Virus record (IMG/VR): IMGVR_UViG_3300028897_000717
Coordinates: 1 to 54,931 of that record
Strand: one strand, 5' to 3'
DNA length: 54,931 bases
From: a virus
This document shows, piece by piece, positions 1,816-35,972 of the stretch. Every line of letters starts with the position of its first letter. Position 1 is the first letter of the stretch. Position numbers and translations under genes: made by a program. Under the pieces are notes generated by a model. That model searched no databases. It was not told the origin of the DNA and was given only the letters and a program-made list of their open reading frames with translations.

Positions 1816-2439
1816 TTACTCTGGTAATTCCTTTCTATACCCAAAGTTATCAAAAATCTTTGCGTCCTTTTTTAATACCAGGTCAACCAATTCATCATCG
1901 TAATAATATGCCGTCTCTCTGTGGTCGGATGTATTCATTACGCCCAAGTCACACAATTTTTGTTTCACCTCATATCCCATGTTCAGGATATCGGCAATCT
2001 GTTCCGTTAATCCATCCTCCATGCGGCATATTTTATCCAAGAGGCACGCTTGTGGCTTGTTCGGGTGAAACCATTGTATGATCATTCGTGCCGTCATGAA
2101 TCCCACACTATCATCAAATAAATTTGTCTTCACGTAAGTCCCCAACTGTTTTTGTGTTGGCAATAACATGAATTCCTTGAATGACATGCCCTTTAAACTC
2201 ATTGTTACAAGATTTGCCCACCAGCTCACGTACCAGTCAAAGGGGTTGCGCACAAAACCGAAACAGAATCTATTTGCTAAATCCACCCCAAAGAGTTCGT
2301 GTGCCTTATAAATTGGTGCATGTCGGTCATTGGTCATCACAACAATGTCGTAACTGGCGTAACGATTAAAAAATTCCCGCAGCAGTGTGCCACCCGTTTT
2401 GGGAAAGTGCGAGTATACAAATGTGCGCCCTATTATCAT
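1816..2439 (-). CDS. Sulfotransferase family protein
   Basis: A 207-residue protein with the two hallmark PAPS-binding elements of sulfotransferases. The 5'-phosphosulfate loop is HFPKTGGT (residues 11-18). The 3'-phosphate element is GFVRNPFDWYVSWW (Arg64). The order and spacing fit the compact Sulfotransfer_2-like families that sulfate carbohydrates. The predicted reaction is transfer of sulfate from PAPS to an unknown acceptor, probably a glycan given the neighbours. Its start overlaps the preceding methyltransferase stop by 4 nt (ATGA), implying translational coupling. It is one of seven putative sulfotransferases in the window. Confidence 0.85.
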   Translation of the reverse strand: MIIGRTFVYSHFPKTGGTLLREFFNRYASYDIVVMTNDRHAPIYKAHELFGVDLANRFCFGFVRNPFDWYVSWWANLVTMSLKGMSFKEFMLLPTQKQLGTYVKTNLFDDSVGFMTARMIIQWFHPNKPQACLLDKICRMEDGLTEQIADILNMGYEVKQKLCDLGVMNTSDHRETAYYYDDELVDLVLKKDAKIFDNFGYRKELPE

Positions 2440-3275
2440 TCTTTATCCCTAGTCAGATACCAACATGCCCTTAAGGCCAACCTAGCCGAAAACCCTACCA
2501 ATGGTATAAACGGTCGTTGTACTTTTTCTAATATGGGAATTTTGGGATTCCACTTCCCCTTTATTCTTATTTCATCGGCATTGTCCCATTCTGTGGATTC
2601 AATCATTGTGTAATACCATAGAGGGTGAAGTGTCCAACCAGAAAATATATTAATCATTGTATGAACCACATCTTCGTATGATGCCAAGTATACTGATTCA
2701 TGCGATATGCTTTTTGATCTATGGTCTGGCCTGTCAGTTGCCACCCTATCTTTACGGTCACGATGAAATATTTCGCTCTCTATAATTATTGTTTTCACTG
2801 AATCGGAAATAAGTCTTACTATTTCAGTCCATGGGTTTGTCATATGGTAAATCAAACCGAGGCATGATATAACGTCATAGTTATTGTCTGGTGTAAAATT
2901 GCGTACATTGGTTGTATGCCACTTTATTCGGGTTGTATCTATATTGGGGATTCGGTCTTTGATTTTATTCCATTGCTTCCTGAAATCCAGGCGTCCCTCA
3001 ACTGCGGTGACATGTTCTGCCCCTGCCCGAATATATTCTATAGGGAAATGTCCTGCATTGGAGCCCAAGTCAAGTATGCTTTTGCCTTCAAATAGGTCTC
3101 TGCGACTATTGATCCACAATGTCAGGGGTCCCAAGCGCCCATTATAATCGCCACCCAATAAAGTGCCATCATCCAATATCTGATTAATAAGCGAACCATT
3201 AAGGCAGTTTATAACGCCTGAACGCTTATATATGCCATCATCTCCTATTGGTAATCCCGTTCTATAAAAAGACAT
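2436..3275 (-). CDS. SAM-dependent methyltransferase (class I)
   Basis: A 279-residue protein with a classical SAM-binding Rossmann core: motif I ILDLGSNAGHFPIEY near residues 67-81, an acidic VEGR loop about 20 residues later, and an ISCLGLIYHM post-motif. The motif style resembles the CmoB/DUF1698 group of small-molecule or tRNA methyltransferases. Between a split transketolase and a sulfotransferase it could methylate a sugar or sugar precursor, which is inference. It begins directly after the transketolase C-half stop (3276). Confidence 0.8.
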   Translation of the reverse strand: MSFYRTGLPIGDDGIYKRSGVINCLNGSLINQILDDGTLLGGDYNGRLGPLTLWINSRRDLFEGKSILDLGSNAGHFPIEYIRAGAEHVTAVEGRLDFRKQWNKIKDRIPNIDTTRIKWHTTNVRNFTPDNNYDVISCLGLIYHMTNPWTEIVRLISDSVKTIIIESEIFHRDRKDRVATDRPDHRSKSISHESVYLASYEDVVHTMINIFSGWTLHPLWYYTMIESTEWDNADEIRIKGKWNPKIPILEKVQRPFIPLVGFSARLALRACWYLTRDKE

Positions 3276-3758
3276 TTACACCCTTATGTATGCTGGTTTC
3301 TTGCTTTTAATAAACTTATCAATCAAAATATCAAACCTATCTGCATCGTAGTATGGGTCATAAACCTTCATACCTATCATATCTATGAGTTTTATGTCAT
3401 CCTTGCCGCAACAATGGCAATCGCCAAGGAATCGAAAGTAATCATCACATCCGGTTGCAATGAATTTGACTGGCAATTCCTGTAGTACAACATCATTTCG
3501 TATCTGCTCAAGCGCTCTGTAAACGAGAAAGTTCACTATGCTATAAACAACTGGTCGCATGCCTGCAAGCGCCATCCCTGCAGCTATCCCGACCATGCCC
3601 TGTTCGGCAACCCCGCAATTGGTTATCCGTTCTGGCATTTCATCATGCATTTTATCAATGGCGCCAAAACCCATATCCCCCACAAGCAAATGATAACGCT
3701 CGTCTTTTCTGAAATAGGGGACTAACTGGTCTATTATGATTTTGCGGTAGTTGCTCAT
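3276..3758 (-). CDS. Transketolase-like, pyrimidine-binding (C) subunit
   Basis: 160 residues matching the Pyr domain of transketolase: RITNCGVAEQGMVGIAAGMA contains the conserved glutamate that activates thiamine diphosphate, followed by RPVVYSIVNFLVYRALEQIR. It lacks the usual third (Transketolase_C) domain, so it is about half the length of an ordinary C-terminal subunit. It directly abuts the N-half gene (3759). The two presumably form a split TPP enzyme transferring a two-carbon unit onto a sugar or aldehyde. Split transketolases occur in polysaccharide clusters. The product here is unknown. Confidence 0.85.
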   Translation of the reverse strand: MSNYRKIIIDQLVPYFRKDERYHLLVGDMGFGAIDKMHDEMPERITNCGVAEQGMVGIAAGMALAGMRPVVYSIVNFLVYRALEQIRNDVVLQELPVKFIATGCDDYFRFLGDCHCCGKDDIKLIDMIGMKVYDPYYDADRFDILIDKFIKSKKPAYIRV

Positions 3759-4505
3759 TTATAGGCGCAATTCATCCTGTGTTGGTAAACGATAATGAAA
3801 CTTCGGTACATTCTCTGCCACTAACAGGCCATACCCCTTAATTGTTTCTGCCATAACGCAATGGGGGAACTTGTCACCCACATACATATTTAGCGTTTCA
3901 ATTAATTCTGCCATATCATGTCCGTTACATATTATGGGCCACAACCCAAAACCGCTTAACCGCCTGCGTAGCGAATCATTAAACCTATCCATTACATTAA
4001 TTCTGAAATCCATGGCCTGCAAGCGGTTATCGTCCACTATTATTGCAAGGTTGTTTAATTCATGCTTGACGGCAAACTGAATGGCTTCCCAGTTGCTCCC
4101 TTCCTGCATTTCGCCGTCTCCTACAATACAAAAGACTCGACCCTCATGACCCAGTACCTTTTTTCCGAAGGCCGCGCCTACCGCTATCGGCAGTCCGTGT
4201 CCCAACGAACCGCACCCTGCGGTTATCCCATAATTCAAGTTGCGGGCGGAACAACCGGGAAGCTCAAAGTTTAACCATACCTCTCTCGGTATTTTGCCTA
4301 AGTCGGTAAGTATGGCATAAAGTCCATAACACCCATGTGCCTTGCTAAATATCAATTCATCATGGTCACCCATAACCTCGTAATACAGGGCAACCAATAT
4401 ATCCACACAGGACAGGGATGGCGCTATGTGCCCCTGCTTATTGCGCACAGCAACATCTATGACTTCACGCCTTATTTGGTCTGCTTTATTTTGATGGGGT
4501 TCCAA
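3759..4505 (-). CDS. Transketolase-like, TPP-binding (N) subunit
   Basis: A 248-residue N-terminal transketolase domain. It shows the QGHIAPSLSCVDILVALYYE helix, FSKAHGCYGLYAIL, GSLGHGLPIAVGAA, and the Mg/TPP motif GDGEMQEG followed about 26 residues later by DDNRLQ. The start appears to be TTG at 4505, lying inside the small upstream gene (4486-4596), so translation is probably coupled. It partners with the Pyr subunit immediately downstream. Together they make a minimal split enzyme without the C-terminal domain. Confidence 0.87.
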   Translation of the reverse strand: MEPHQNKADQIRREVIDVAVRNKQGHIAPSLSCVDILVALYYEVMGDHDELIFSKAHGCYGLYAILTDLGKIPREVWLNFELPGCSARNLNYGITAGCGSLGHGLPIAVGAAFGKKVLGHEGRVFCIVGDGEMQEGSNWEAIQFAVKHELNNLAIIVDDNRLQAMDFRINVMDRFNDSLRRRLSGFGLWPIICNGHDMAELIETLNMYVGDKFPHCVMAETIKGYGLLVAENVPKFHYRLPTQDELRL

Positions 4506-4596
4506 TTGGTCCGTGGCCTCCGCCTTTCCCTTTCCCCTTACCCTTGCCCTTAGATTTGATTTTTCCGCCAGGACAGTTTTTCTTTTTTGCCATCAT
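4486..4596 (-). CDS. Small Lys/Gly-rich protein (36 aa)
   Basis: A 37-codon frame with tandem ATG ATG at 4596-4591 preceded by a strong GGAGGAA site. The product begins MMAKKKNCPGGKIKSKGK, continues with alternating Gly-Lys, then GGGHGPIGTPSK. It is extremely basic and low in complexity. It ends inside the start of the transketolase N-subunit. The strong ribosome binding site argues that it is translated. Function unknown: nucleic-acid binding is a guess from composition only. Confidence 0.6.
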   Translation of the reverse strand: MMAKKKNCPGGKIKSKGKGKGKGKGGGHGPIGTPSK

Positions 4597-4651
4597 TTCC
4601 TCCATTAATTGTAAAGCGTTATGTGTTCCCAATCGAAATAACTGTTGAAAT

Positions 4652-4972: not shown

Positions 4973-4984
4973 ATGGTTATCTCC

Positions 4985-5713: not shown

Positions 5714-6426
5714 CGCAACATATCCATATACATTGGGAACGCCTTGAATATCAAGCGATCTCGCCACACGACTTCGCGCACCATTGCGTCATCATAATAT
5801 TCCTGCCAAGGTTTTCGTTCTGTGCTGTTTTCATGCGGAAATTCCGTATCGTTCTTGAACCCAAGTGTATCAGTCAAGAGTTGCCGCAATATGCCTATAT
5901 GTCCTAATTCCATTGGTGCTATCGCATCCGCAAGGCATAATTCCCGCCAACGGGAACGCCAATTAGGGTCTATTACTATCTTTGCTAAATCAAAATAAGC
6001 AGTCAAAAAACGCCACGTAAGCATGCCTATATTTTGTGGTATCCTCTTAAAAGACTCAAACACTACTCTCGTATTCCCATAAGCGTAGGGCAACTGTTCC
6101 GAAACAGGCAAAGACATAAAGTGTTTAAAACTCCATGATTGGCGTTCCTCCCCCCTTCTATGCCAATACGATACATACCAATCAAATGGATTACGTATAA
6201 AACCAAACTTAAAGCACATCTGAATCTCATAATTTTGTGCCAAACATAGTGGTTTATGCCAATAACCACTCCTATCAACCATGCTATCTGTTACTACTCC
6301 ATCGCCAGGTTCGTAAACAATCCTGTAGTTTTGCTCCAACCACTTTTTTGTGCTGCTCCCTCCAGTATGCTGCAAGTGGGTAAATATTGCTCGCTTGCCC
6401 GTGTCTGGATTTTCAAAAATAACCAT
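5710..6426 (-). CDS. Sulfotransferase family protein (tandem copy B)
   Basis: A 238-residue paralogue of the gene at 4985-5713. The PAPS loop is HLQHTGGSSTKKW and the 3'-phosphate element is GFIRNPFDWYVSYW. ATG at 6426 overlaps the radical-SAM stop as TAATG, making a coupled operon. Both copies share the unusual LQHTGG loop, so the substitution is ancestral to the pair. A dispersed 16-bp palindrome (5941-5956) lies inside the gene and encodes SRWRE. The acceptor is unknown. Confidence 0.82.
   Translation of the reverse strand: MVIFENPDTGKRAIFTHLQHTGGSSTKKWLEQNYRIVYEPGDGVVTDSMVDRSGYWHKPLCLAQNYEIQMCFKFGFIRNPFDWYVSYWHRRGEERQSWSFKHFMSLPVSEQLPYAYGNTRVVFESFKRIPQNIGMLTWRFLTAYFDLAKIVIDPNWRSRWRELCLADAIAPMELGHIGILRQLLTDTLGFKNDTEFPHENSTERKPWQEYYDDAMVREVVWRDRLIFKAFPMYMDMLR
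5941..5956. repeat. Dispersed 16-bp palindrome, copy 1
   Basis: TTCCCG-CCAA-CGGGAA, a perfect 6-bp inverted repeat around a 4-nt centre. It lies inside the sulfotransferase gene 5710-6426 and is translated there as SRWRE. Confidence 0.9.
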
Positions 6427-7442
6427 TATATAAAATTTACGTGCTTTGGCGGTTCCTCTTTCAGCGCCCATAAATAACGGTTGCAGGCATCCATCCTACA
6501 CATCTTGCGACACTCTGTGCAATCAGGTGTGGGTTTGTTTATAGTCCACACCATATCGCTAAACGGTTGTTTCTTGATATTTCCATAGTAGAACGCCTTA
6601 TTCCCCAGGTGAGCGCTACATGACCATAATCCGCCCCCACTATCTAAGTATGCCCAGAAAGGTAGGGCATAGCATTTGTCATATGCACGCTCTGCATTGT
6701 CTGCCGTGTTTGTGCGGTATATTATGGGGAACCCATCAATTTCGACCCTCTCTGTCCAAGAGGAATAATCTATGTCTCCATATGGGGCATCACTTGAGGG
6801 GTGCTGCGAGTACGGTTTTATTACCAGATAATCCATGCCAATGTTTTTTGCCATTTTAGCCAACTCAAACACTTCGTCCCTATTTTCGGGCAACCAAAGC
6901 ATCTGAAAACCCAACACACACGGATATTGATTACGCTCCCTGATAGACGCCGCTCGTTCCATGTTTCTTAATGTCTGATAAAATTTGTTTTCCTTAACGC
7001 CGTGTAGTTTGGCATACGTGCCCGGAAATCCAGCATCCACGCTCGTCTTTATCCAGTGGCAGTACGGGAGTATCTTTTCGGCAAGTTCCTGTTTTAGCAA
7101 TCCGCCATTAGTGGTTATGGCCACATCTAAACCGCTTAACACGGCAGTTCTCACTATTTCCGCAATATCCCCATGAAGCAACGGTTCCCCTTCTCCCGCA
7201 AACATAACGCTCTTGGTGCCTACCCCTGCCATCTCACCGAATGTGGCCTCAAGCAACCCAATATCTAGTTTGCGTCTCTTGTATCCCATAAAGTCAAGGG
7301 CACAAAAGACACATCGGTGTTGGCATGCCCCTATCGGGCTAATCTCCACATATATTGGCCCTATCGGTTCTCCGTTCAACCACTTGGTGATTCTTTTGGG
7401 GTGAAATTGTAATTTTTGGCTATCAATATAATATTTATCCAT
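6426..7442 (-). CDS. Radical SAM/SPASM enzyme
   Basis: A 338-residue radical-SAM protein with CxxxCxxC at C40, C44 and C47 (ACQHRCVFCALD). GEGEPLLHG supplies the GGE-type SAM-binding motif. The C-terminal SPASM-like region is rich in cysteine (DKCYALP, LWSCSAHLG, DCTECRKMCRMDAC). ATG at 7442 is preferred to an upstream GTG. It is a paralogue of 709-1812, with the same N-terminal block, Cys positions and a PPKHVNFI end. It sits directly upstream of two sulfotransferases. The peptide or sugar substrate is unknown. Confidence 0.9.
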   Translation of the reverse strand: MDKYYIDSQKLQFHPKRITKWLNGEPIGPIYVEISPIGACQHRCVFCALDFMGYKRRKLDIGLLEATFGEMAGVGTKSVMFAGEGEPLLHGDIAEIVRTAVLSGLDVAITTNGGLLKQELAEKILPYCHWIKTSVDAGFPGTYAKLHGVKENKFYQTLRNMERAASIRERNQYPCVLGFQMLWLPENRDEVFELAKMAKNIGMDYLVIKPYSQHPSSDAPYGDIDYSSWTERVEIDGFPIIYRTNTADNAERAYDKCYALPFWAYLDSGGGLWSCSAHLGNKAFYYGNIKKQPFSDMVWTINKPTPDCTECRKMCRMDACNRYLWALKEEPPKHVNFI

Positions 7443-8427
7443 TGACACATCTCAAATCAAAACGTCTACAACCATATTGACTATGTATATATTCATGGCA
7501 TGTGTTACATACTGTTATGCATATATCTATATCTACAGATTCAATGGGGTTCTGTTTTATACCTTCTAGATGATGACAATGGAGGCTTTTATTGTCCCCG
7601 CATATTTGGCATTCCCAACCATCACGCTCAAATACCATTTGGCGTAATTCGGGTTGCACTTCTCTTGCAGAATATTTTTCTCGTCCCCTGAGAAATTTTC
7701 GTTGATTAAAGGTGGGACATTCATTTTTGCATTCATCAGAGCAATATAATCGAGACTCTCCGTGATTTACTAAATGTGTTACTCGTATCCGGTTACGGAC
7801 AGCGTTTTGAGTGGGGGTAAACCAGATGCCACAATAAGCGCATTTTACTTGTAAAATATTTGTTTCTGTAGGTTTCCTCCGAACGTCTTCCATAAATTTG
7901 ATTTGTTTAGCATAAGTATCATATGCACATAATTGGCGTTTTTTTACACCCCCCTTCCAACTTGATGACTTTTCTTTTTTCCTTGAGTTTTTTTGGAACC
8001 AAAGCAACCAACAAGTCTTATTACAAAAGAAATGTTTATTTCTTTTGAGAGCATAAGGGGTAACCATCTTAGGTTTTTTGCAGTTACTACATGCTACTTT
8101 GATTTTGGTAGATTTTCGTTGATAATTCCCCTTGCTTAACCATGAACGAAAACATTTTTGGTCACAGAAAAAATGCTTATTACGTTTTGCACGAGAGGGG
8201 TGAACAAATTTTTTTGTACCACACTCGCCACATTGAACTTCAATGCTACTAAATTGAGGGTTATTTGTTCCTCTGGTATTTTCTGATAACCATAATGCTT
8301 GGCACTTACTGTCGCAAAAATGTCTTTTAGACCTAACCGCACGAGCAAGTGTTAATCTTTTTGGTTTATTGCAGTATGCACACAAGACTTTGACTCTTTC
8401 TTTTCTTTCTTTTGTATGCTGTCTCAT
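7435..8427 (-). CDS. HNH homing endonuclease with zinc-finger array
   Basis: A 330-residue free-standing homing-type endonuclease. Four treble-clef-like zinc modules (CxxC, then FC..KC....W) occupy roughly residues 13-240. The C-terminal HNH nuclease follows: VFERDGWECQICG, then LHCHHLEGI, then VCNTCHEYIH. The zinc array probably reads DNA. It overlaps the radical-SAM gene downstream by 8 nt. The gene at 42920-43783 has the same architecture, so the two are related. It is probably a selfish element inserted between phage genes. Confidence 0.85.
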   Translation of the reverse strand: MRQHTKERKERVKVLCAYCNKPKRLTLARAVRSKRHFCDSKCQALWLSENTRGTNNPQFSSIEVQCGECGTKKFVHPSRAKRNKHFFCDQKCFRSWLSKGNYQRKSTKIKVACSNCKKPKMVTPYALKRNKHFFCNKTCWLLWFQKNSRKKEKSSSWKGGVKKRQLCAYDTYAKQIKFMEDVRRKPTETNILQVKCAYCGIWFTPTQNAVRNRIRVTHLVNHGESRLYCSDECKNECPTFNQRKFLRGREKYSAREVQPELRQMVFERDGWECQICGDNKSLHCHHLEGIKQNPIESVDIDICITVCNTCHEYIHSQYGCRRFDLRCVNG

Positions 8428-8430
8428 GTC

Positions 8431-8500
8431 TTATAAATACCCAAATCGCTCCATAGCCAGTTTAAATTTTGATCGCTTTTTCCATGTATTATCATGGCCA
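8431..8500 (-). pseudogene. Possible sulfotransferase C-terminal relic
   Basis: In the gap between two genes one frame reads NTWKKRSKFKLAMERFGYL and then stops at 8431-8433. This resembles the FTATMENFGYL terminus of the sulfotransferase at 10358-11302. It has no start codon or upstream domain, so I read it as the tail left after most of a sulfotransferase gene was lost, perhaps when the HNH gene next door arrived. A 25-codon ATG frame also spans this gap. Evidence is limited to about 15 residues. Confidence 0.35.
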
Positions 8501-9289
8501 TTATATTGGTTGTATGTTAGTTGCGGGTCTAAATTCTGCCTCGATACCCTGCCTTAATTCTATTGGTTTTGCCTCTGGCGGTGTCCGTGGATAACCAAAC
8601 CTGTCAAACAAGTATTGTTCCCTATGAAGAATTTCGCTTACTGCGCGCTCATCATAATAATCGCATATAGCCTTATTCGGGTCTTTCCTAACAGATGGCG
8701 TCAAGTTGTATGGTTCGGCCTTTCGTAAACCTGCCTCCTGTTCGGGGGATAGTTTGAAAATAAACTCATTGAATATGTCTACCACTTGTTCTACGAGTCC
8801 ATCTTCCAATCTTATTATCTTATCGGCTAGATCACTACCGTCATCATCGAGAAACATGAATTTAAACCACTTGGTCATCATACCATCCTTTATGTCTCCC
8901 TCGTTCCATACCCTCTGGTGGTGTGGCCAATTAATGGGTCTGCATTCATCCTGGTTTAATAGGTACTCACTAAATCCTACTGGCCTGTCTGTCACAGAAC
9001 CGTCAAAACTAAATTGTGCTATAGACCACCATGACACCCACCAATCGAAAGGGTTTTTTATTATGCCCCAACGATAAGGTGGGTCTGTAATGCGGTAGGG
9101 GCGATTTGGACCGTTATATATCCAATCACCAAGCCATTTACGAATGAAGGTTCCGGCGCACTTGGGCATATGAATGAAACCAAAATCAGTATGCACGTAG
9201 GTGAATTTTCGATAGGAATACGTGTCGAACTTGTTCTTGCGCCTATTCATGTGCTGAATGTATTCCCAGGCTATTTGGCTTCTAATCAT
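8501..9289 (-). CDS. Sulfotransferase-like protein
   Basis: A 262-residue protein with a 5'-phosphosulfate-type loop HMPKCAGTFIRKWL and a 3' element GIIKNPFDWWVSWWS, in which the usual Arg is Lys. The motif order fits Sulfotransfer_2-type enzymes. LEDGLVEQVVDIFNEF in the middle is shared in style with the 1816-2439 and 12254-12895 enzymes. It starts with ATGA overlap on the upstream YkgJ-like gene. The Lys-for-Arg change may alter PAPS binding. Confidence 0.78.
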   Translation of the reverse strand: MIRSQIAWEYIQHMNRRKNKFDTYSYRKFTYVHTDFGFIHMPKCAGTFIRKWLGDWIYNGPNRPYRITDPPYRWGIIKNPFDWWVSWWSIAQFSFDGSVTDRPVGFSEYLLNQDECRPINWPHHQRVWNEGDIKDGMMTKWFKFMFLDDDGSDLADKIIRLEDGLVEQVVDIFNEFIFKLSPEQEAGLRKAEPYNLTPSVRKDPNKAICDYYDERAVSEILHREQYLFDRFGYPRTPPEAKPIELRQGIEAEFRPATNIQPI

Positions 9290-9516
9290 TTTGACTTACA
9301 ACAAAAATCAACGCAAGCATCGGGGCGGTTCTCGTAAATGCCACAAAGATTGTCCTCGGTTAAGTGTGGACAGTCTTTATCAAACACAAACATCATCTTC
9401 TTTACTGTATGCCCCGTGCGCACCGATAAAAATTTAGCCGCTTTTGGAGGAAGTGTAATTGAATACTTATTGCCTTTCCTGCAACACTTTCCGCATTTAT
9501 CACAATCCTCTTTCAT
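9286..9516 (-). CDS. YkgJ-type CxxCxxCC small metal-binding protein
   Basis: 76 residues, starting at ATG 9516, which overlaps the radical-SAM stop (ATGA). It has the CDKCGKCCRKG N-terminal cysteine cluster and the downstream DCPHLTEDNLCGIYENRPDAC motif typical of the YkgJ/UPF0153 zinc- or iron-chelating family. Such proteins often accompany radical-SAM or post-translational modification enzymes. Here it lies directly between a radical-SAM enzyme and a sulfotransferase. Its biochemical role is unproven. Confidence 0.85.
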   Translation of the reverse strand: MKEDCDKCGKCCRKGNKYSITLPPKAAKFLSVRTGHTVKKMMFVFDKDCPHLTEDNLCGIYENRPDACVDFCCKSK

Positions 9517-10358
9517 GTTGACCTCAAGGTAATGGCACATGAGCCATACTCCTGAAATCTATTATTCTTGATTTTTACATCACACTCATTGCATGAGGGG
9601 GTTTGGCAATTTCTAAATTTGAACCCTATTTCAAGGTCTTCATCTAATATGTGTCCAATCGGGTTAATCCCCGCATACAAATCCCTGTGGCATCTATGTA
9701 AGTGCCCATCGGGTGCTATCAGTATTTCAGTATTCTTACATTCCACATCTTTTACTTTTCCACGCATAACTCTTGGATACTTATATGTTCCGTATAGTTG
9801 TCCATGATACTCACCCAAAAACTGCTTGGTGCGAAAATCAACTCCCGCAAGCAATGCAGTACGTTTCAATATCTCAATGCCAACATTAGGGTGATCCACA
9901 ACAAACAACCCTATATCATATCCCGCTCCCTGTAATGCCAGTATGCGTCTCAACAATACATCATAGTCTGCCCATTCGGGATGATAGCTAACTCTAATAG
10001 ATGCATAGGGGACGTTTCTCTGTAGTCGCCCTGGCAGTATTCTTTTTATGAAATCATCCAAATCAAACGTAAGGTTGGTAAGAATATCTATGTAGAATTC
10101 CGGTCTCACACCTTCTATGATATCCAACCATCCCTTGTAAACGCTTGGTTCTCCACCCTGTAGCGTCAACGGCACCATAAGCGAGCGGGTAATGTTTAAG
10201 CGGTTCAATCCCTCCACCCATTGTTCTGGGGTTAATTCCCGTCGACGGGAAAGTTTTCCGTGCCTATTGATGCAGTAGATACACTTATAGTTACAGCGTA
10301 ATGTTAGAAACACGCCCACATAAGTCAAATCGTTTGGCACATCAATTTTTGGTAACAT
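9513..10358 (-). CDS. Radical SAM enzyme
   Basis: 281 residues with the cluster motif at C22, C26 and C29 (RCNYKCIYC), a TLQGGEPSVYKGW SAM-binding GGE motif, and C-terminal cysteines (HLHRCHRDLYAG, CQTPSCNECDVK) that could carry an auxiliary cluster. It is shorter than and unlike the two paralogous radical-SAM proteins at 709 and 6426. TAATG overlap links it to the sulfotransferase upstream, and the YkgJ-like gene follows. A palindrome copy inside it (10236-10251) encodes SRRRE. Substrate unknown. Confidence 0.88.
   Translation of the reverse strand: MLPKIDVPNDLTYVGVFLTLRCNYKCIYCINRHGKLSRRRELTPEQWVEGLNRLNITRSLMVPLTLQGGEPSVYKGWLDIIEGVRPEFYIDILTNLTFDLDDFIKRILPGRLQRNVPYASIRVSYHPEWADYDVLLRRILALQGAGYDIGLFVVDHPNVGIEILKRTALLAGVDFRTKQFLGEYHGQLYGTYKYPRVMRGKVKDVECKNTEILIAPDGHLHRCHRDLYAGINPIGHILDEDLEIGFKFRNCQTPSCNECDVKIKNNRFQEYGSCAITLRST
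10236..10251. repeat. Dispersed 16-bp palindrome, copy 2
   Basis: TTCCCG-TCGA-CGGGAA, a perfect palindrome including the centre. It lies in the radical-SAM gene 9513-10358, where it encodes SRRRE. Confidence 0.9.
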
Positions 10359-11302
10359 TATAAGTATCCAAAGTTTTCCATTGTGGCAGTAAACCTATCG
10401 CGTTCTGGTTGTTCTATATCCTCAATCTTGATTGGTACAACCCTCATTGAGTCTTCACATTCTCTTTTTACCCTGTCTTCCATCATCTCTGTCAGAGCAG
10501 TCGGTGAAACAAATGGATAATTAGATAGCATCATTCCAGCAATAATGCCTGGGTTCTCCACAATCATTTCATATTTGACATATTGGGCATCGCCCAGTGT
10601 ATCCATTTGCGCTCTCCATATATGAGCACATCTCGTTATATTATTCCACTCACCCCATAGCTCTCTAGCCTCTGAAGATACATACCACGGGCAATATGTT
10701 TCCGGTATAAACCAATTCAGTAAGGGAAGGGTTGGATGGGTAACGCCATCAGGTGTAGCAAATTTTAATTTTACATAATCTGCCACGACATCAAGACCGT
10801 TTCTAACCACGATCATGAATTTTACTTTCGGAAAAATCTTTCTTATCGTTGCCATGTGTGGAAATCCATCCACCAAATCGGAGATAAATAAGGGACGTTC
10901 CTCTATTATTCGAACAATGGCAGCACCATTGTCTGAGTTGTTTCCATGTCTCCTTTCAATCAATCGTTCTGCACATGTGGCCCATGCCCAATCTTTGTAA
11001 AGTAAATGGCGGGGATCATCGCACAAATATATCCCCCTAACCATTGGCACACAATGATCGTATAAAAGTGATAATCGGATAAGTGGGGATAATGTTTTAA
11101 GGGCATCGTTTGATGCGTGCGGGGGGATAAGTTTAAACAAGGCTGGATGATTTAATCTATAAACATATTTCATGGTTGCAACTATCGCAGCAATCCAGGT
11201 CAGGCCAGTTCTTGCCACACCAGTTATCAGCAACATATTGTCAAGCATGCTTCTTTCTAACGGTAGTTGCAAGGCAAGCCCCTTATGATTTTCTTCAATC
11301 AT
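10358..11302 (-). CDS. Sulfotransferase family protein (large type)
   Basis: A 314-residue sulfotransferase of a different subtype from the short ones. The N-terminal loop is LLITGVARTGLTWIAAIV and the 3' element KFMIVVRNGLDVVADYV. ATG at 11302 is chosen because AAAGGGG lies 5 nt upstream. A TTG at 11344 would lengthen it by 14 residues. The C-terminus ends MENFGYL. It resembles the enzyme at 35082-35972 (IAIGRSGTSVLLRLL; FLHITRDPNAIINSMI), which lies in the other accessory island. Confidence 0.8.
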   Translation of the reverse strand: MIEENHKGLALQLPLERSMLDNMLLITGVARTGLTWIAAIVATMKYVYRLNHPALFKLIPPHASNDALKTLSPLIRLSLLYDHCVPMVRGIYLCDDPRHLLYKDWAWATCAERLIERRHGNNSDNGAAIVRIIEERPLFISDLVDGFPHMATIRKIFPKVKFMIVVRNGLDVVADYVKLKFATPDGVTHPTLPLLNWFIPETYCPWYVSSEARELWGEWNNITRCAHIWRAQMDTLGDAQYVKYEMIVENPGIIAGMMLSNYPFVSPTALTEMMEDRVKRECEDSMRVVPIKIEDIEQPERDRFTATMENFGYL

Positions 11303-11333
11303 GGTGCCCCTTTCATTTTCAAAATCGTGCTTA

Positions 11334-12266
11334 TCAGGCAACAAGCCTGCGCGTCTCCTCGTTGACGGTCTGCGCCGAAATAGCTTTCATGCAGGGTTCG
11401 GTGAACTGGCAGGTAGGTTTTAGACAGGGCATGTGCCCGCATATGTCGGGGGCAATTATCTTTTTGCCATTCTTGTATAGGTATACTTCGTGAGGAGATG
11501 TGGGGCCAAACAGCGCAACCGTCTTTTTCTGCATCGCGATAGCCAAGTGCAACCCAAGGCTATCGTTCGTTATGATTGATTTGCAACTGTGAATCCAATC
11601 CATATAAGTTCTTAAATCATTCTCCCCCTCCTGCCATGACACCTCCCTGATGTTTCCATCCAATAAACTGTATAATTCATTCCACCTCTCCGTGGGCCAT
11701 GCCTTGTTTGGCCACTTTCTGCCCACGCGATGATTTAATCCAACCTTAAATCTTACTTCGCTTTTTGGTTTATATCCGAGCACGTACGGCTCGCCATTCC
11801 ATTTCCGATCTAGCATTTCAAACAGCACATCCTGCCACGGGCGGGTGGCGTACCGTTTACGCTCATAGCTGCTATACGTCAAGAAAGCATTCACGCTATC
11901 CTTGTATGCCCTAGCAGTTCCAGTCTCAGGGTCAAACCTAAATCCGCATTTCTCCCATGCGTGAATCCTGTCCGCCAATGCGCACATCCCCGGTGTCTTT
12001 TCCAGATTTATCATAAGGTCATAGCGTTCGGACTCCAACTGTAACAACGAATCCCAATGCCTGATAAGCACGCGGTCTATCATTGGGTTGTTTTCAATGA
12101 GCGGGTAGGCAGATTCCTCTACAAGCCATGTAATATTATAATCCTTCAGGCAATGGAGTATTACCGTGGTGCGCAACACATCCCCAAGGCTGGGTGTTCG
12201 TCCTATCTCTGGATCCAGTGTTTCAGAATTGCCAAGTTTCAGGATAAGGGCCTTTAGCACCCCCAT
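11334..12266 (-). CDS. Glycosyltransferase family 9 (heptosyltransferase-like)
   Basis: 310 residues with the GT9/WaaF-type layout. The N-terminal block is LILKLGNSETLDPEIGR..SLGDVLRTTVILHCL. The C-terminal donor-site block is SIITNDSLGLHLAIAMQKKT then VALFGPTSPHEVYLY. A cysteine-rich segment (ICGHMPCLKPTCQFTEPCM) follows, as in many members. GT9 enzymes transfer heptose or related sugars to LPS core. In this operon it may build the glycan that the sulfotransferases modify. Alternative starts at TTG 12275 or GTG 12260 cannot be excluded, because GGAGG suits several. Confidence 0.85.
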   Translation of the reverse strand: MGVLKALILKLGNSETLDPEIGRTPSLGDVLRTTVILHCLKDYNITWLVEESAYPLIENNPMIDRVLIRHWDSLLQLESERYDLMINLEKTPGMCALADRIHAWEKCGFRFDPETGTARAYKDSVNAFLTYSSYERKRYATRPWQDVLFEMLDRKWNGEPYVLGYKPKSEVRFKVGLNHRVGRKWPNKAWPTERWNELYSLLDGNIREVSWQEGENDLRTYMDWIHSCKSIITNDSLGLHLAIAMQKKTVALFGPTSPHEVYLYKNGKKIIAPDICGHMPCLKPTCQFTEPCMKAISAQTVNEETRRLVA

Positions 12267-12895
12267 TGCCTCCAAGAATCTTTTTCGTAACCGAAAGCGT
12301 TAAACATGGGTCTTTCTTTATAATACACTGCTTCTGCCAATTGTTCCGTGTAATGGGCATCCCTGACGGAGCTATTCTGTCTTTCTCCGTTGTAACTTTT
12401 GCCCGTTACACGTTTTAAAATATTGCCTATCCCGTCCTCAAACCTGTAAACGGTCACATCGGGCGGTTTAAGCGTTCCACCAAATTGTACCCACCAACGA
12501 TAAAACATGAATCCCTCCTTGGCATTCTTTTGATGCCATAAGGCGTATTTCATCTTTTCTCCTTGTTTCATGCGTAAGTGTACTTTTGGCGGGTCTAGTT
12601 GGTGCGGGAGTGCCTTTGCATAATCTTCAAAGGCCATTCTGTCACTATACATCCAACTCCAGTAGGACATGTTCCAATCGTATGGGTTCCTGACAACCGT
12701 CCACATGCCAGCATTCCATAAGTCCGATCTCTCAATGAATAGCTGTTTGGCATGTCCGTATGCTGGATGCTGGTACTCATAAACGTCCCTGTATCCTTCT
12801 GCCCCTGGTGATTCATCCCCCATAAGGCAAAAGTCGGGTTGCCTTAGTTTCGCTTTTATGTATGTGCCACCCGTTCTTGGAAAATGGATAAACAT
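12254..12895 (-). CDS. Sulfotransferase family protein
   Basis: A 213-residue putative sulfotransferase whose PAPS loop is at the extreme N-terminus (MFIHFPRTGGTYIK), with the 3' element MWTVVRNPYDWNMSYWS. The tail NAFGYEKDSW matches the FGY ending of its relatives. It starts TAATG on the stop of the head-tail connector gene, so the accessory island is fused directly onto the structural operon at this point. Confidence 0.84.
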   Translation of the reverse strand: MFIHFPRTGGTYIKAKLRQPDFCLMGDESPGAEGYRDVYEYQHPAYGHAKQLFIERSDLWNAGMWTVVRNPYDWNMSYWSWMYSDRMAFEDYAKALPHQLDPPKVHLRMKQGEKMKYALWHQKNAKEGFMFYRWWVQFGGTLKPPDVTVYRFEDGIGNILKRVTGKSYNGERQNSSVRDAHYTEQLAEAVYYKERPMFNAFGYEKDSWRQWGC

Positions 12896-13497
12896 TACGT
12901 TTTCCAGATTTTATACGGCAATGTTAACGCCTTGACCGCATTTGGGATGTGACTTACTGTTTGCCCAACAATGAACGTCTCTCTTTGTTCGTACAGATCG
13001 CTAATTACCAGTTTGATTGCATGTTTTAAACGTTCTGGCACTTCCGAGGAACCGCCATAACCGCACAAGTATTGCACGGCTATCGGGTTTACGTTGTGGA
13101 GAGATTCTGTTGGCCAACTCTCGTTGTATTCCAAAACTATGCGCCCTGGTTCGCTCACCGAATCACATCTATACACCGTGGTTCCCATGGTAATGGTGCT
13201 ACTGTCAATATCAACGTATGTCACTATGGGGGCAGTTTCGGTAGAAAACGGCGGGTAAGGCAGTTCTATCGTGTCATTATTACTTGGCCAAGCATCTATG
13301 TAATACTTCACGGTCTGGCGTATCAAGCGCCTGCCAGTCATGTCTTCAACCTGTCCGCGAGCCACCTCTATAAGACTATTCAAGTAATCATCGTGTGCCG
13401 TTTCGCCTATCTCTATCCTTAGATGGTGCTTAACATCCTCCAGGTCTAGCGGTTCTGCGGTAGAGGCAGTAACAACATCAACTCTCAAATCTCGCAT
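12895..13497 (-). CDS. gp6-like head-tail connector protein
   Basis: A 200-residue protein matching the HK97 gp6 / YqbG-type connector family: EPLDLEDVKHHLRIEI with DDYLNSLIEVARGQVEDMTGRRLI forms the helical N-terminal core, followed by a beta insertion and LKHAIKLVISDLYEQRE. These proteins form a ring below the portal that joins head to tail. A good ribosome binding site (GAGGAGG) precedes ATG 13497. It is the last recognised virion gene before the left accessory island. Confidence 0.85.
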   Translation of the reverse strand: MRDLRVDVVTASTAEPLDLEDVKHHLRIEIGETAHDDYLNSLIEVARGQVEDMTGRRLIRQTVKYYIDAWPSNNDTIELPYPPFSTETAPIVTYVDIDSSTITMGTTVYRCDSVSEPGRIVLEYNESWPTESLHNVNPIAVQYLCGYGGSSEVPERLKHAIKLVISDLYEQRETFIVGQTVSHIPNAVKALTLPYKIWKT

Positions 13498-22496: not shown

Positions 22497-22503
22497 TCCG
22501 TCC

Positions 22504-22959: not shown

Positions 22960-22968
22960 AAATAGTCC

Positions 22969-31092: not shown

Positions 31093-34000
31093 TTAGCCTG
31101 GAGTTAAGCCGCAATCACACGAGTGGTGGAGTGGCGGGTGCCCAACCGACCGCCGTATACGCATGGGGACTAAATCACCTTTCGGTTGAAAATCCCCCTG
31201 CAACACAAAGTCTTGCCCCCTTGAAACCACCTTGCCATCTAGTTCTCTGCAATAAGGGCATGATTTGCCACGTGCTCTCCACACAAGTCTGTATCCCGCC
31301 CCAAGAAATATCATTGAAGCAACAGCATTACCTATTTGACTGCCTTCATTCGTGGCTATTTTACCGTGTCTCTTTTCTGCCCACTCGTCCGCCCGTTTTT
31401 CCACGTCCTCTGCCAACATTGCAGGGTCACTCTCTCGTAGCATTTGACGCAATTGCCCAAGGGAAGATTTAATGTGTCGCCCGCTATACGTATCCAAATA
31501 CTCATCAACAAACTTTTTTAGTTCGGGCGTCATTTCGGGTTCTAACTGTATTTCGGAGTGTGCCTCTTTCTGTATGGCATCTACGTAAGACATGACCACG
31601 GGTTTGAACATGCGTTTTATTTTGTCGGGCAGGTCGAAATAAAATTGCTCCATCCATTCCTCAAAGGACAAAAGGTTTCGTTTGGTCAAGTGCTTTTCTA
31701 CCGCTCGCTTTACGGCATTAGCTTCCAAGCGCACAAAGCGTTCTGCGGCGTCAAGAAACAACCCGTAAAAACTGCCCCGTATCCTGTGGCGGTTCATGGG
31801 AAATTTGCTATCGTCCTTGTCACCTTCTCCAAGCAATAATTGCTGGTCTTCCTCTATATTACCTTCCGGCAACTCGGAGAGTTCCGCCTCCATTGCACCC
31901 GCCCCCAAAAACATGTTAGATGGAGTCATGTTCATGGGTACGAGATAAACGTCCCCGCCTTCCTCTATCGGGTTCATGTCTTCAAGCTCGCGAATATCGT
32001 TGGCGGAGAGCCATCCCCATTGGCGTGCAGTGGAGTAATACTTACCTCTGCCTTCAATGTCACCACGCAACAATCCGCTAAGATTATGTTTAAAAAAGTA
32101 ATCTAGTTGATCATTTTCTGGTAACAACTGTGTGTTGTAACATTGTTCTAGTCGTGATGCCCAAGGAACTATAGAATGCTTGGTAAAAAATAAATCTTGT
32201 TTTTCTATATTGGAATTATGAACCACCACGCCATTAGCAATAAATGAGTGTGTCTGATTCACTTCTAAATCATACACTGGTTCGTAAATTCCCTTTTCAA
32301 TGCTCACAATTCTTGCGAGTTCACAATTTTCAAGATCAAAATTTTTGCCACCCCATAATGGGTATGCTCGTCCTTTTTTATCAAATGGTTTGCCATTCTT
32401 AAAGCGTTCCACATAAACGGGAGTATGTGAACCAATTCTACGATTAGAACCTGGATCTGAGCATGTAAATGTCCACAACGGATTCTGTGCTTTTGCACCA
32501 TTCGGCAAAATAGTTTCACGATTTGCAAAGCGTATATTTGTAACTGGGATGCCTAACCCCATACAAATATGACGAATCTGGGACAATAATTTACCATTAC
32601 ACGAATGAAATGCTATCCGGCCTTTTTTATCAACAGAACCATCGGCATCTAAATATCCACGCAAAAAACCCAACTGTAAATCGGCACCCAACTTAAAAAC
32701 CCAGCTCGGAACACTTTTAGTGTGAGCATTGCCACTGAATCCAAGCGCAATCAATTCATCACAGGCACTCACCGAACTAAATCGTGTTTGTCTTTCGCCT
32801 TCTTGTAGTTTGATTTTTCTTTTTGGTGACTTTTTAGCTTTTGTCTTCCAACTACGACCAGCCAAAATGCCCTCTATTGTATCCTTGCTAACCCCATATC
32901 TTTTGGCTATTACTGCGGATGAATTTTCAAATTTTGACTCAAATCTTATTTGATTAACATCACTCCATTTTAGTTTTGCCATGCAATGAGCTTCGCCATG
33001 GCGGTATATCTGCCCCCCCTGCCGAAAAAGTGACCTCATGACATCACGATAATAATCCATATATGTGGCCACCCTGGAACGTGCTATCGTTACATATCCA
33101 GAACTACTTTGTGATTTGATAATATTCCCATCACCCAACAATAACCCGCAAAACTCCATAAATGGAATAGTTGCTTTCCGTGTTGGCGTCTGATCTGAAT
33201 TCATGTCTGGCAAACATTTTAGATTAACTATGGTATCGCCAACTTTTAACATGTCAGCCCTAATCCATTCGTTTTGCCAAAACACCCTTTTTTGTGGTCC
33301 TAATATGTAATACGGAAAAAAGTGATGATATTTTCTCCTAACAAGTATGGGGTGGCGACCATTACAGCGAATTGTTCTGTTCTCGGTTTTAATGGTATAG
33401 ATTCGATCAATTCCCGTACAACTAGACTTGTTTACTTTGGATAATTTCCATTGTCGAAACGCTTTAAGACTCCAAACATTTTCTCCCGCCCTAATTTCCG
33501 CAATTGGTTTTGGTCCTGATTCAGTATAAACTTCCACTTCGGCAGGTAAACAATATGTAGCCTTATCTAAATCTCCCACAAGATGGGGTGGTACTTTAAA
33601 TAATCCAGCAATTTGTTCACGTTGGAACTTTTGCCCTTCCAGAAATTGGCTGTCTCTCGGCGGTATTCCTATCTCCTTGATTTCCATCCCTTCATCAAGT
33701 ATGGCTATTCGGTGCGCTGCATCCAAACCTCTATGCATTTTCTCCCAACTTTTGCGTAAATTTTCATGCCCCCGATCACCTAAATCCCCTGGATGCGTTA
33801 TAACTGCACTAGGTCTGGCATCATTGGCAAAAAATTTGGCTGCATATTTTTCCATGGCTAACCCAAGTGCTATCGCTTCACGTGACATAGAAAGTGGACC
33901 ATATCCCTGCACACCGTCAAAACCTAAACCAGGGATATGTAGGCAATCGCGCCTAGTTAATAAACGTTCTTGTCCATTTTTCAATGCAAACCGATAAAGC

Positions 34001-34455
34001 AATTGACCATTTGGCATGCGTTCAATTTCCATTCTATCTGGACGTAATGGCCACAATTCAATAAGTTGACCACGCTTATCAAGAACTTTATTGCCATAAA
34101 AGTTTCCCCAAGAATTCAGGTGAACCATCATTATTTCACGCAATTGTTGAGCAGTCATTTCTGGGTTTGGTTTGCGATAAAGCAATTGATAAAGTGGATG
34201 ATCGGTTGCCTTATCTTTCCCTTTAGCACCATTTTCACGATGTTTGAAAATATGGAGAGGTAAAGATGCCACAGCTTCGGCTAGAACACGGATGCAAGAA
34301 AACACAACAACATATTTCATTGCGTCTTCTTCACTCAGATTTTCACCCGTGTGCGTCTGTATCCCGCTACCCAGTCCCCAAAGTTTCAGGTTTGTGTTGC
34401 TAGTTCGTGTCTCCCGTTTTCCGTCCCCTTTCAAGAAACGTGTCAGGTATCCCAT
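31093..34455 (-). CDS. Portal protein (HK97 type) with intein and gpF-like C-terminus
   Basis: A 1120-residue precursor. Residues 1-301 are the HK97-family portal: YVVVFSCIRVLAEAVASLPL, HPLYQLLYRKPNPEMTAQQL, FFANDARPSAVITHP and FKVPPHLVGDLDKATY. The intein is 302-747. The portal resumes at 748 (SNIEKQDLFFTKHSIVPW, LLRGDIEGRGKYYSTARQWG). From about 880 a minor-head module follows, ending GAGYRLVWRARGKSCPYC and PPLHHSCDCGLTPG, typical of SPP1 gp7/Mu gpF-like proteins. The spliced length would be 674 residues. Portal and minor head protein are thus fused. The portal forms the DNA entry channel. Confidence 0.92.
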   Translation of the reverse strand: MGYLTRFLKGDGKRETRTSNTNLKLWGLGSGIQTHTGENLSEEDAMKYVVVFSCIRVLAEAVASLPLHIFKHRENGAKGKDKATDHPLYQLLYRKPNPEMTAQQLREIMMVHLNSWGNFYGNKVLDKRGQLIELWPLRPDRMEIERMPNGQLLYRFALKNGQERLLTRRDCLHIPGLGFDGVQGYGPLSMSREAIALGLAMEKYAAKFFANDARPSAVITHPGDLGDRGHENLRKSWEKMHRGLDAAHRIAILDEGMEIKEIGIPPRDSQFLEGQKFQREQIAGLFKVPPHLVGDLDKATYCLPAEVEVYTESGPKPIAEIRAGENVWSLKAFRQWKLSKVNKSSCTGIDRIYTIKTENRTIRCNGRHPILVRRKYHHFFPYYILGPQKRVFWQNEWIRADMLKVGDTIVNLKCLPDMNSDQTPTRKATIPFMEFCGLLLGDGNIIKSQSSSGYVTIARSRVATYMDYYRDVMRSLFRQGGQIYRHGEAHCMAKLKWSDVNQIRFESKFENSSAVIAKRYGVSKDTIEGILAGRSWKTKAKKSPKRKIKLQEGERQTRFSSVSACDELIALGFSGNAHTKSVPSWVFKLGADLQLGFLRGYLDADGSVDKKGRIAFHSCNGKLLSQIRHICMGLGIPVTNIRFANRETILPNGAKAQNPLWTFTCSDPGSNRRIGSHTPVYVERFKNGKPFDKKGRAYPLWGGKNFDLENCELARIVSIEKGIYEPVYDLEVNQTHSFIANGVVVHNSNIEKQDLFFTKHSIVPWASRLEQCYNTQLLPENDQLDYFFKHNLSGLLRGDIEGRGKYYSTARQWGWLSANDIRELEDMNPIEEGGDVYLVPMNMTPSNMFLGAGAMEAELSELPEGNIEEDQQLLLGEGDKDDSKFPMNRHRIRGSFYGLFLDAAERFVRLEANAVKRAVEKHLTKRNLLSFEEWMEQFYFDLPDKIKRMFKPVVMSYVDAIQKEAHSEIQLEPEMTPELKKFVDEYLDTYSGRHIKSSLGQLRQMLRESDPAMLAEDVEKRADEWAEKRHGKIATNEGSQIGNAVASMIFLGAGYRLVWRARGKSCPYCRELDGKVVSRGQDFVLQGDFQPKGDLVPMRIRRSVGHPPLHHSCDCGLTPG
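32215..33552 (-). mobile_element. Intein with LAGLIDADG homing endonuclease
   Basis: Residues C302-N747 of the portal (446 aa). The splice ends are Y|CLPAEVEVYTESG, with GRHPILVRR as the block B-like segment, and HSFIANGVVVHN|S. Two LAGLIDADG helices, FMEFCGLLLGDGNI and QLGFLRGYLDADGSV, make a full-size homing endonuclease. A VIAKRYGVSKDTIEGILAG helix-turn-helix-like segment lies between them. All splicing residues appear intact. The site is the conserved GDLDKATY/SNIE portal core. Confidence 0.93.
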
Positions 34456-34976: not shown

Positions 34977-34978
34977 AG

Positions 34979-35080
34979 AAAAAAAGAAAGGGAGGCATAA
35001 CGAGATGTTGCGGGCCATCCCGCATTGGCCTCCCCTAAATTGGACTCAGACAACTCTAGCCCGGGGCGTCAGAGTCCAAA
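34979..35080 (-). terminator. Tandem hairpins with U-run before the APS-kinase-like gene
   Basis: On the minus strand two stem-loops follow the sulfotransferase stop. TTGGACTC pairs with GAGTCCAA (arms 35040-35047 and 35071-35078). GGGAGGC pairs with GCCTCCC (arms 34990-34996 and 35028-35034) with an inner TGCGGG-ATGG-CCCGCA hairpin. TTTCTTTTTTT follows and then, after CT, the ATG at 34976. It looks like an intrinsic terminator or attenuator directly in front of a coding start. Confidence 0.6.
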
Positions 35081-35081
35081 C

Positions 35082-35972
35082 TTAATATCCCAATTCCTTC
35101 TTTAACGCCAAAAACCGTTCCCGCACAGGTTCCCTAATCAAACCCGCTATATCGGGGTACTCGCTTAGCTTGTGTTTTCTGATACTCTTTATGTGCCGCT
35201 TGGTTATCTCTGTTGGTTCAAGATTGTACTTCACGGCTAAAAATTCTGCGAACCGCCCAGGTGACGTGCATAAATCTTCGTATCTTATGTTTTGGCAGGC
35301 GTCGTTTTCGTGCGAAAACCTGAGCCACTCTTTCGTCAACGTTGTCACGACACAGGCAGTCCGCGTTTCAACATTCCAATCTTTCCAAAGAGCTTTGTCA
35401 TTATCATCTATATACCATGGTACATTAATGCAATTATTATACCTATCTACATAATCAACTACCGTCGCCATAAATTCGTCCGTCCACCAACCACGTTTTA
35501 TCATAGAATTTATAATCGCATTTGGATCACGTGTGATATGCAAAAATCGGCAACCAGGAAATATATCAATTAACGATGGCAAAAGCATCTGGCTTTCTAG
35601 GGTCTTTAAAATAAATAACGGATTTTCTCGCTCAATATAATCTAGCACTTCCCGTCTACGGGAATATTGACCGTGAAAATTGTTAGTGTAATAATTGCCT
35701 ATCCATGTATCCTCATTCTCGTTGGGGTTTTGATTTCGACCAGAAATTTGTGGAACAATATAATCCTCAAAAAGCATCCCAAGGAATATCTCATTATCAA
35801 GTGGATAACCAGGATAATATTTGAGTGCAGCTGGTTCATAGAGAAATACAGTTGGCTTCATAGATGCAAGAAGGCGGAGCAAAACACTCGTTCCACTCCG
35901 CCCTATCGCAATTATAAACAAAACACGGTTTGCAAATAAATCAATATAATTGGTTGGTATTTGCAAACTCAT
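35082..35972 (-). CDS. Sulfotransferase family protein (large type)
   Basis: 296 residues from ATG 35972. The 5'-phosphosulfate loop is FIIAIGRSGTSVLLRLLASM and the 3' element CRFLHITRDPNAIINSMIKR, followed by WLRFSHENDACQNIRYEDLC and GRFAEFLAVKY, the standard late motifs of Sulfotransfer_1/3-type enzymes. It ends LALKKELGY. It sits directly upstream of the PAPS-making candidate (34599) and downstream of neuB. A pentamer array immediately precedes its start. A palindrome copy inside encodes SRRRE. Confidence 0.85.
   Translation of the reverse strand: MSLQIPTNYIDLFANRVLFIIAIGRSGTSVLLRLLASMKPTVFLYEPAALKYYPGYPLDNEIFLGMLFEDYIVPQISGRNQNPNENEDTWIGNYYTNNFHGQYSRRREVLDYIERENPLFILKTLESQMLLPSLIDIFPGCRFLHITRDPNAIINSMIKRGWWTDEFMATVVDYVDRYNNCINVPWYIDDNDKALWKDWNVETRTACVVTTLTKEWLRFSHENDACQNIRYEDLCTSPGRFAEFLAVKYNLEPTEITKRHIKSIRKHKLSEYPDIAGLIREPVRERFLALKKELGY
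35649..35664. repeat. Dispersed 16-bp palindrome, copy 5
   Basis: TTCCCG-TCTA-CGGGAA within the sulfotransferase 35082-35972, where it encodes SRRRE. Confidence 0.9.

Follow-up and report, generated by a model that had tools for sequence, protein, structure and literature searches.

We analysed the linear IMG/VR record IMGVR_UViG_3300028897_000717 in its entirety (54,931 bases, hereafter the window), which is probably a fragment of a phage genome, and found that seven sulfotransferase (ST) genes and a series of sugar genes form two cargo blocks inserted into the morphogenesis operon of a tailed phage. The cargo probably serves the late-expressed, cytosolic tailoring of a glycan, including its sulfation with 3'-phosphoadenosine 5'-phosphosulfate (PAPS) from the host. 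An earlier note on this DNA, which had proposed a glycan-sulfation system of seven STs and a CysC-like protein that could make PAPS, did not mention the nonulosonic-acid pathway described below or the placement of the cargo inside the morphogenesis operon.

Seven sulfotransferases of two families

All seven ST open reading frames (ORFs) listed in the earlier note are present on the minus strand, with the same low-end coordinates (Table 1), and no eighth ST was found in the window. All-against-all BLAST divided them into one family comprising ST1, ST2, ST3, ST4 and ST6 (ST2-ST3, E = 4e-75; ST1-ST6, E = 1.5e-9; ST1-ST4 in Table 1) and a second comprising ST5 and ST7 (E = 3e-15), with a best E of ~0.03 among 2000 shuffled ST sequences used as a control; the subtypes, which the note had called diverse, are two in number. 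PHROG 3347 ('Galactose-3-O-sulfotransferase') was matched by ST1, ST2, ST3 and ST6, and ST7 alone passed its Pfam cut-off, with ST1 (21.0 versus 22 bits), ST3 and ST5 falling below theirs. A paired pattern of the 5'-phosphosulfate-binding (PSB) loop and the 3'-phosphate motif, composed after inspection of these STs, retrieved exactly ST1, ST2, ST3, ST4 and ST6 from the predicted proteins. A profile of the 48-member ST1-type family matched sulfotransferases in the PDB from E = 2e-6 onwards, whereas a five-sequence profile had returned only one spurious match. Structure prediction, which had been suggested as a check, yielded a sulfotransferase fold for ST1, the ST to which the fold evidence applies: the AlphaFold model had high confidence (predicted local distance difference test, pLDDT, 92.8; predicted template modelling score, pTM, 0.89), and its best 50 PDB matches were all sulfotransferases, many of them bound to PAPS or its desulfated product PAP (best E = 4e-3, probability 0.99). 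The fold distance to these proteins is large (template modelling score, TM, ~0.5), and ST1 is therefore a compact, divergent member. Judged by sequence or profile matches, all seven STs belong to the PAPS-type sulfotransferase superfamily. Searches with ST1 and ST7 against annotated phages gave no match, and ST5, ST7, the radical SAM (S-adenosylmethionine) protein at 6426 and the PseB-like dehydratase matched a sister contig alone or nothing among viral contigs.

We further compared the cofactor residues across 48 homologues and found that the loop Lys/Arg was kept in 45, His40 in 44, Arg64 in 47 and Ser72 in 46. The Arg and Ser of the family are spaced by eight residues, as they are in the 3'-phosphate motif of known STs, and in the profile alignment the family His aligns with the 'TH' site of SULT7A1, which is the position of the catalytic base in SULTs. 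Every checked residue is present only in ST1 (PSB loop FPKTGGT, H40, R64 and S72), ST6 (loop FPRTGGT with H, R and S) and ST7, in which GRSGTS and RDPNAIINS supply the loop Arg and the RDP...S motif.

Two cargo blocks in the morphogenesis operon

The main genes of the window lie almost all on the minus strand and follow the order of an HK97-type tailed phage, with small and large terminase, portal, protease, capsid and the connector gp6. Two relatives found via the capsid lack the intervening genes: the large terminase subunit (TerL) and portal genes are ~10 nucleotides (nt) apart in one (L062) and 18.3 kb apart here, whereas gp6 and the head-tail adaptor are ~50 nt apart in the other (L067) and ~14.8 kb apart here. 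The STs and sugar genes therefore constitute two cargo blocks, A and B, inserted into the morphogenesis operon. The far border of cargo B was located on a second contig from the same metagenome (L003/G001, 23.7 kb), which shares 12,079 identical bases with window positions 361-12439 and joins cargo B to the tail genes. Beyond the window it continues with an HNH gene, a head-tail adaptor, tail completion proteins, a major tail protein and a 962-amino-acid (aa) tape-measure protein, the tail functions being assigned from size, order and homology to relatives. Over window positions 1-360 the two contigs differ by 16 single-nucleotide polymorphisms (13 synonymous, three not) next to the identical 12 kb, and this end of the window is a sharp border of strain variation at a contig end.

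Cargo A, from TerL to portal, comprises in order a GFO/IDH oxidoreductase, a DNA methylase, a cytidine monophosphate (CMP)-nonulosonate synthetase, a short-chain dehydrogenase, NeuC, an E1 alpha/beta pair, a NeuD-like acetyltransferase, a WbuX-like amidotransferase, a LegC-like aminotransferase, a PseB-like dehydratase, NeuB, ST7 and a CysC-like gene. Six nonulosonate families (2-epimerase, NeuB, CMP-synthetase, 4,6-dehydratase, aminotransferase and acetyltransferase) were matched within this one block on one strand, and the cargo, on these profile matches, encodes a near-complete nonulosonic-acid pathway. Cargo B, read from gp6 towards the head-tail adaptor, comprises ST6, a glycosyltransferase of family 9 (GT9), ST5, a radical SAM protein, a CxxCxxCC protein, ST4, an HNH gene, a radical SAM protein, ST3, ST2, a split thiamine enzyme, a methyltransferase, ST1 and a radical SAM/SPASM protein. 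Its genes mostly overlap or abut, and the start of ST6 sits on the stop codon of gp6, an arrangement that suggests joint translation late in infection; the number of promoter-like sites in cargo B did not exceed chance (40 found versus 42 expected).

Table 1. Features of the window discussed in the text (bits are given against the cut-off where two values are shown)
Feature	Coordinates	Strand	Evidence
Radical SAM/SPASM protein	709..1812	-	Pfam 53.8 and 25.4 bits
ST1, 207 aa	1816..2439	-	PHROG 3347 E 2e-6; AF2 pLDDT 92.8; PDB fold matches all sulfotransferases
SAM methyltransferase	2436..3275	-	Pfam Methyltransf_23 above cut-off
Split transketolase/DXS-like thiamine enzyme (3759-4505 and 3276-3758)	3276..4505	-	Pfam DXP_synthase_N, Transket_pyr
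ST2, 260 aa	4985..5767	-	PHROG 3347 E 2e-5; 44% identity to ST3
ST3, 253 aa	5710..6471	-	Sulfotransfer_2 21.2 bits (cut-off 22); PHROG 3347 E 8e-5
Radical SAM protein	6426..7448	-	Pfam 68.1 bits
ST4, 262 aa	8501..9289	-	Homology to ST1, E 9e-16; no library match
CxxCxxCC protein (9286-9540) and radical SAM protein (9513-10358)	9286..10358	-	Pfam
ST5, 328 aa, Sulfotransfer_3 type	10358..11344	-	Pfam 20.5 bits (cut-off 27); ST7 paralogue
GT9 glycosyltransferase (heptosyltransferase family)	11334..12275	-	Pfam Glyco_transf_9 58.4 bits
ST6, 213 aa	12254..12895	-	PHROG 3347 E 2e-8; start overlaps gp6 stop by 1 nt
gp6-like head-tail connector	12895..13497	-	Pfam Phage_connect_1 and synteny; upstream border of cargo B
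Portal protein with intein	31093..34455	-	Pfam and synteny; downstream border of cargo A
CysC-like P-loop kinase, 139 aa	34599..35018	-	Pfam APS_kinase 72 bits; fold matches APS kinases
ST7, 299 aa, Sulfotransfer_3	35082..35981	-	Pfam 40.5 bits, above cut-off 27
NeuB-like nonulosonate synthase, 249 aa	36045..36794	-	Pfam NeuB 167 bits; TIGR03569 194/400 bits, under full-length NCBIfam cut-off
PseB-like UDP-GlcNAc 4,6-dehydratase	37908..38765	-	TIGR03589 321/408 bits
LegC/PseC-like DegT aminotransferase	40198..41223	-	Pfam 194 bits; TIGR04181 183/420
WbuX-like N-acetyl sugar amidotransferase	41845..42951	-	TIGR03573 163/203 bits; PDB 8wex E 1e-17
NeuD/PglD-like sugar acetyltransferase	43780..44370	-	TIGR03570 150/161 bits
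E1 alpha/beta thiamine dehydrogenase-like pair (45356-46120 and 44309-45253)	44309..46120	-	Pfam E1_dh, Transket_pyr
NeuC, hydrolysing UDP-GlcNAc 2-epimerase	46439..47554	-	TIGR03568 321 bits, above cut-off 236
Short-chain dehydrogenase (PtmA-like among matches)	47542..48213	-	Profile matches
CMP-nonulosonate synthetase-like	48655..49392	-	Pfam CTP_transf_3; PDB 6ifd CMP-Neu5Ac synthetase E 2e-17
DNA methylase	49839..51815	-	Pfam
GFO/IDH/MocA oxidoreductase	51802..52629	-	Pfam
Terminase large subunit	52777..54462	-	Pfam and synteny; upstream border of cargo A

Homing-like genes of HNH or NUMOD3 type, some recognised by eye, are interspersed among the virion and cargo genes (7435-8427, 27022-27708, 30137-30997, 42920-43783 and L003:13445-14343) and have a low G+C content (37-39% in the window); such genes may have helped the cargo to move. 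A further HNH-like ORF recognised by eye (50735-51298, plus strand) lies antisense within the DNA methylase frame. Inteins with a LAGLIDADG signature occur in the portal gene and probably also in the gene at 24083-25855 (LAGLIDADG match, intein ends placed by eye), and the match of another sister contig (L061) to the window ends at 32341, within the portal intein, which may differ between strains. Fibre- or lectin-like proteins at 18697-23601 and 4652-4972 (weak Laminin_G_3 and Calx-beta matches) carry apparent N-terminal signal peptides or a lipoprotein motif, which is unusual in virion proteins, and an 826-aa protein at 14410-16890 contains divergent repeats (RPNAFKI..., AKNAISQHI...) and has no Pfam match.

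Probable glycan tailoring and its alternatives

Members of the ST family were found at 58 viral loci. A 70-kb virus (G008, IMGVR_UViG_3300009436_000025) carries six STs of the same family, and between them lie glycosyltransferases of the capsular, Fringe and GT92 types as well as a pyruvyl transferase; other viruses have two to four STs per locus, and in one of the contigs (G004) a repeated ST-GT9-ST-radical SAM arrangement is later followed by a DegT aminotransferase. Among 150 genes near STs at 32 other viral loci, glycosyltransferases of family GT2 were the commonest (10/150) and SAM methyltransferases came next. These neighbours tie the ST family to glycans in general, as a sample of contigs without a measured base rate. 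GTDB genomes yielded just five distant ST relatives, one of them inside a sugar cluster. Two chromosomal STs of the same family (L108:10001-10648 and L109:8297-8986) share the same gene setting in two metagenome-assembled genomes (Deltaproteobacteria OFTM235 and Dadabacteria), with no surrounding sugar cluster.

The gene content is probably best explained by late, cytosolic tailoring of a glycan, including sulfation at the expense of host PAPS. The position of the cargo in the operon would place its expression late, alongside the virion genes; block A would provide most steps from uridine diphosphate N-acetylglucosamine (UDP-GlcNAc) to a CMP-activated nonulosonic acid donor; an acceptor carbohydrate would be built or modified in the cytosol; and the STs would move sulfate from host-made PAPS onto sugars of this acceptor glycan. 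Homology, the ST1 fold, the gene order and the two insertions are observed here, and enzyme activity, glycan target, timing and destination are inferred. Of the candidate sulfation system proposed earlier, the seven STs of two subtypes amid sugar-pathway genes are supported and fit glycan sulfation, as do the glycosyltransferase and methyltransferase neighbours elsewhere, while PAPS production by the CysC-like protein is not supported.

Several observations weigh against this interpretation. The PAPS motifs that the note had assigned to all seven STs are complete in ST1, ST6 and ST7 and substituted in the other four: the loop Lys is replaced by His in both ST2 (LQHTGGT, with R present and S changed to T) and ST3 (LQHTGGS, with R and S present), ST4 (loop MPKCAGT) has K for R and lacks the conserved His, and ST5 (loop GVARTGLT) has Asp for the Ser of the 3'-phosphate motif, and therefore seven active enzymes should not be assumed. 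Of the seven nonulosonate-type proteins, NeuC alone exceeds its NCBIfam cut-off, the other six scoring under the curated thresholds for full-length proteins, and the pathway may therefore be incomplete. No nonulosonate transferase and only one glycosyltransferase (GT9) were recognised in the Pfam scans of the window. The early region and the tail-tip genes lie outside the contigs, and functions encoded there could be missed. Finally, in Stenotrophomonas phage DLP6, the sole cultured phage found with a related ST, the gene lies amid replication genes rather than sugar genes.

We next considered where such a glycan would go. Serotype-converting phage genes alter the host surface, and the enzymes here could likewise modify host lipopolysaccharide (LPS), capsule or flagellar glycan by sulfation or nonulosonate addition, for example blocking superinfection or the re-binding of progeny. 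This destination, a specific one within the broad interpretation of glycan tailoring, is plausible if less than probable, and nearly as likely as the virion. It is consistent with the GT9 protein, since members of this family are typically LPS heptosyltransferases. Acinetobacter prophages are known to carry genes that change host nonulosonates (PMC12053666, PMC6586298), and Patescibacteriota phages carry O-antigen nucleotide-sugar genes (PMC12911398). The genes lie amid the virion operon, however, not next to an integrase or at one end of the phage, and membrane glycosyltransferase, flippase and acyltransferase genes were not recognised in the Pfam scans of the window. Pfam scans of the sequenced part of the genome recognised no flippase, polymerase, ligase or exporter, so that cytosolic attachment of the glycan to a virion protein is slightly favoured over a host surface glycan. 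The fuller proposal, that the virion bears a sulfated, nonulosonate-containing glycan made by enzymes encoded in the head-tail joining operon and that multi-ST phages form a recurrent class, is tentative and rather doubtful as a whole; if true, sulfation of the phage particle would be a novel form of virion modification. A sulfated or sialic-like coat, on the virion or on the infected cell, would influence how phages adsorb, superinfect and are recognised by the immune system.

The earlier proposal of a PAPS-making enzyme rested on the CysC-like ORF, which indeed lies just downstream of ST7 (63 nt away, on the minus strand). In a self-sufficient system, this kinase would turn adenosine 5'-phosphosulfate (APS) into PAPS, and the phage would supply its own donor. 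The P-loop, DGD and Arg are present, the Pfam APS_kinase score exceeds its cut-off of 21.1, and the best fold matches of the model, with 38% identity over 103 columns, are APS kinases from archaea. The protein shares its core fold and P-loop with adenylyl-sulfate kinase (CysC), but the Pfam match covers only profile positions 3-102 of 152, and alignment to complete CysC shows that the lid segment and the C-terminal helix are missing. The model accordingly consists of a P-loop core with disordered C-terminal residues (pLDDT 76), and the protein falls under all NCBIfam apsK cut-offs, with about half the required score or less (TIGR00455, 78 versus 139 bits). A frameshifted lid was considered, and the remainder was not found in other reading frames. 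Pfam scans covering the main proteins of the window recognised no ATP sulfurylase. The protein is APS-kinase-like in its core, whereas PAPS supply by the phage is unproven and, in our estimation, unlikely; a sulfate-assimilating host would provide PAPS anyway.

APS_kinase matches over the cut-off occurred in 10 of 49 ST-bearing viral records and in none of 26 capsid or TerL relatives, but most of them belong to a different family of 140-270 aa kinases, some fused to NMNAT-like domains, and the difference therefore does not show PAPS supply; it was set aside as support, this separate short kinase family being common in viral contigs and the control contigs being smaller. These common viral kinases (L096, L098, L120, L132, L134 and others) have the motif GR[FY]EDTN in place of the lid, are often fused to an NMNAT-like nucleotidyltransferase domain and may be misannotated as adenylyl-sulfate kinase. 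No relative of the CysC-like protein was found in viral contigs by exact patterns, and AGRM01000002, listed among 'phages', proved to be a contig of Salmonella that carries a normal cysDNC operon.

Two further readings rank low because their partner genes were not recognised. The STs could act on small metabolites, with the CysC-like gene feeding sulfate assimilation, and the best fold matches do include SULT-type enzymes and antibiotic sulfotransferases, from a fold that also acts on small molecules; yet Pfam scans of the window recognised neither ATP sulfurylase nor PAPS reductase, and the STs adjoin sugar genes here and, in other viruses, glycosyltransferase or methyltransferase genes, so that this reading seems improbable. 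Least probable of all is an action of the STs on modified DNA bases, for which glycosyltransferase- and sulfotransferase-based systems are reported in phages (Iyer et al. 2013, via PMC10829341). A DNA methylase lies at 49839, but Pfam scans covering the main proteins of the window turned up no homologue of a TET/JBP oxygenase, base hydroxymethylase, base kinase or thymidylate synthase, and the neighbours are nucleotide-sugar and nonulosonate genes.

Relation to known systems

Phage STs have been collected in PHROG 3347, whose family signature is shared by ST1, ST2, ST3 and ST6. Two OM43-type phage genomes contain Sulfotransfer_3 genes, the function of which was called unclear (PMC10580990); these marine phages carry single genes, in contrast to the seven STs of two paralogous families and the sugar cargo in a virion operon described here. 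The position of the seven STs beside a nonulosonate pathway in such an operon hints at a role for phage STs, and because multi-ST sugar cassettes recur in other viruses, the strategy may be more general among phages. The 70-kb virus introduced above is similar in its six same-family STs amid sugar genes and differs in having many more glycosyltransferases and, in the portion inspected, no nonulosonate genes. A search of the open-licence literature yielded no account of a phage whose virion operon combines several STs with a nonulosonate pathway.

The mycobacteriophages Che8 and Rita have glycosylated virions, the proteins of which are decorated by phage-encoded glycan enzymes (Freeman et al. 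2023, via PMC11256854). Phage-encoded glycan enzymes are common to both cases, with virion decoration reported there and only a candidate role here; that account mentions neither a sulfotransferase nor a nonulosonate pathway, both of which are found here. Bacterial legionaminic and pseudaminic acid biosynthesis is matched in its dehydratase, aminotransferase, acetyltransferase, NeuC, NeuB, CMP-synthetase and WbuX-type amidotransferase, whereas the proteins here are phage-borne and shortened or divergent. Single phage STs, O-antigen sugar genes and phage changes of host nonulosonates are already known; the combination of multiple STs with a sugar cargo appears to be new.

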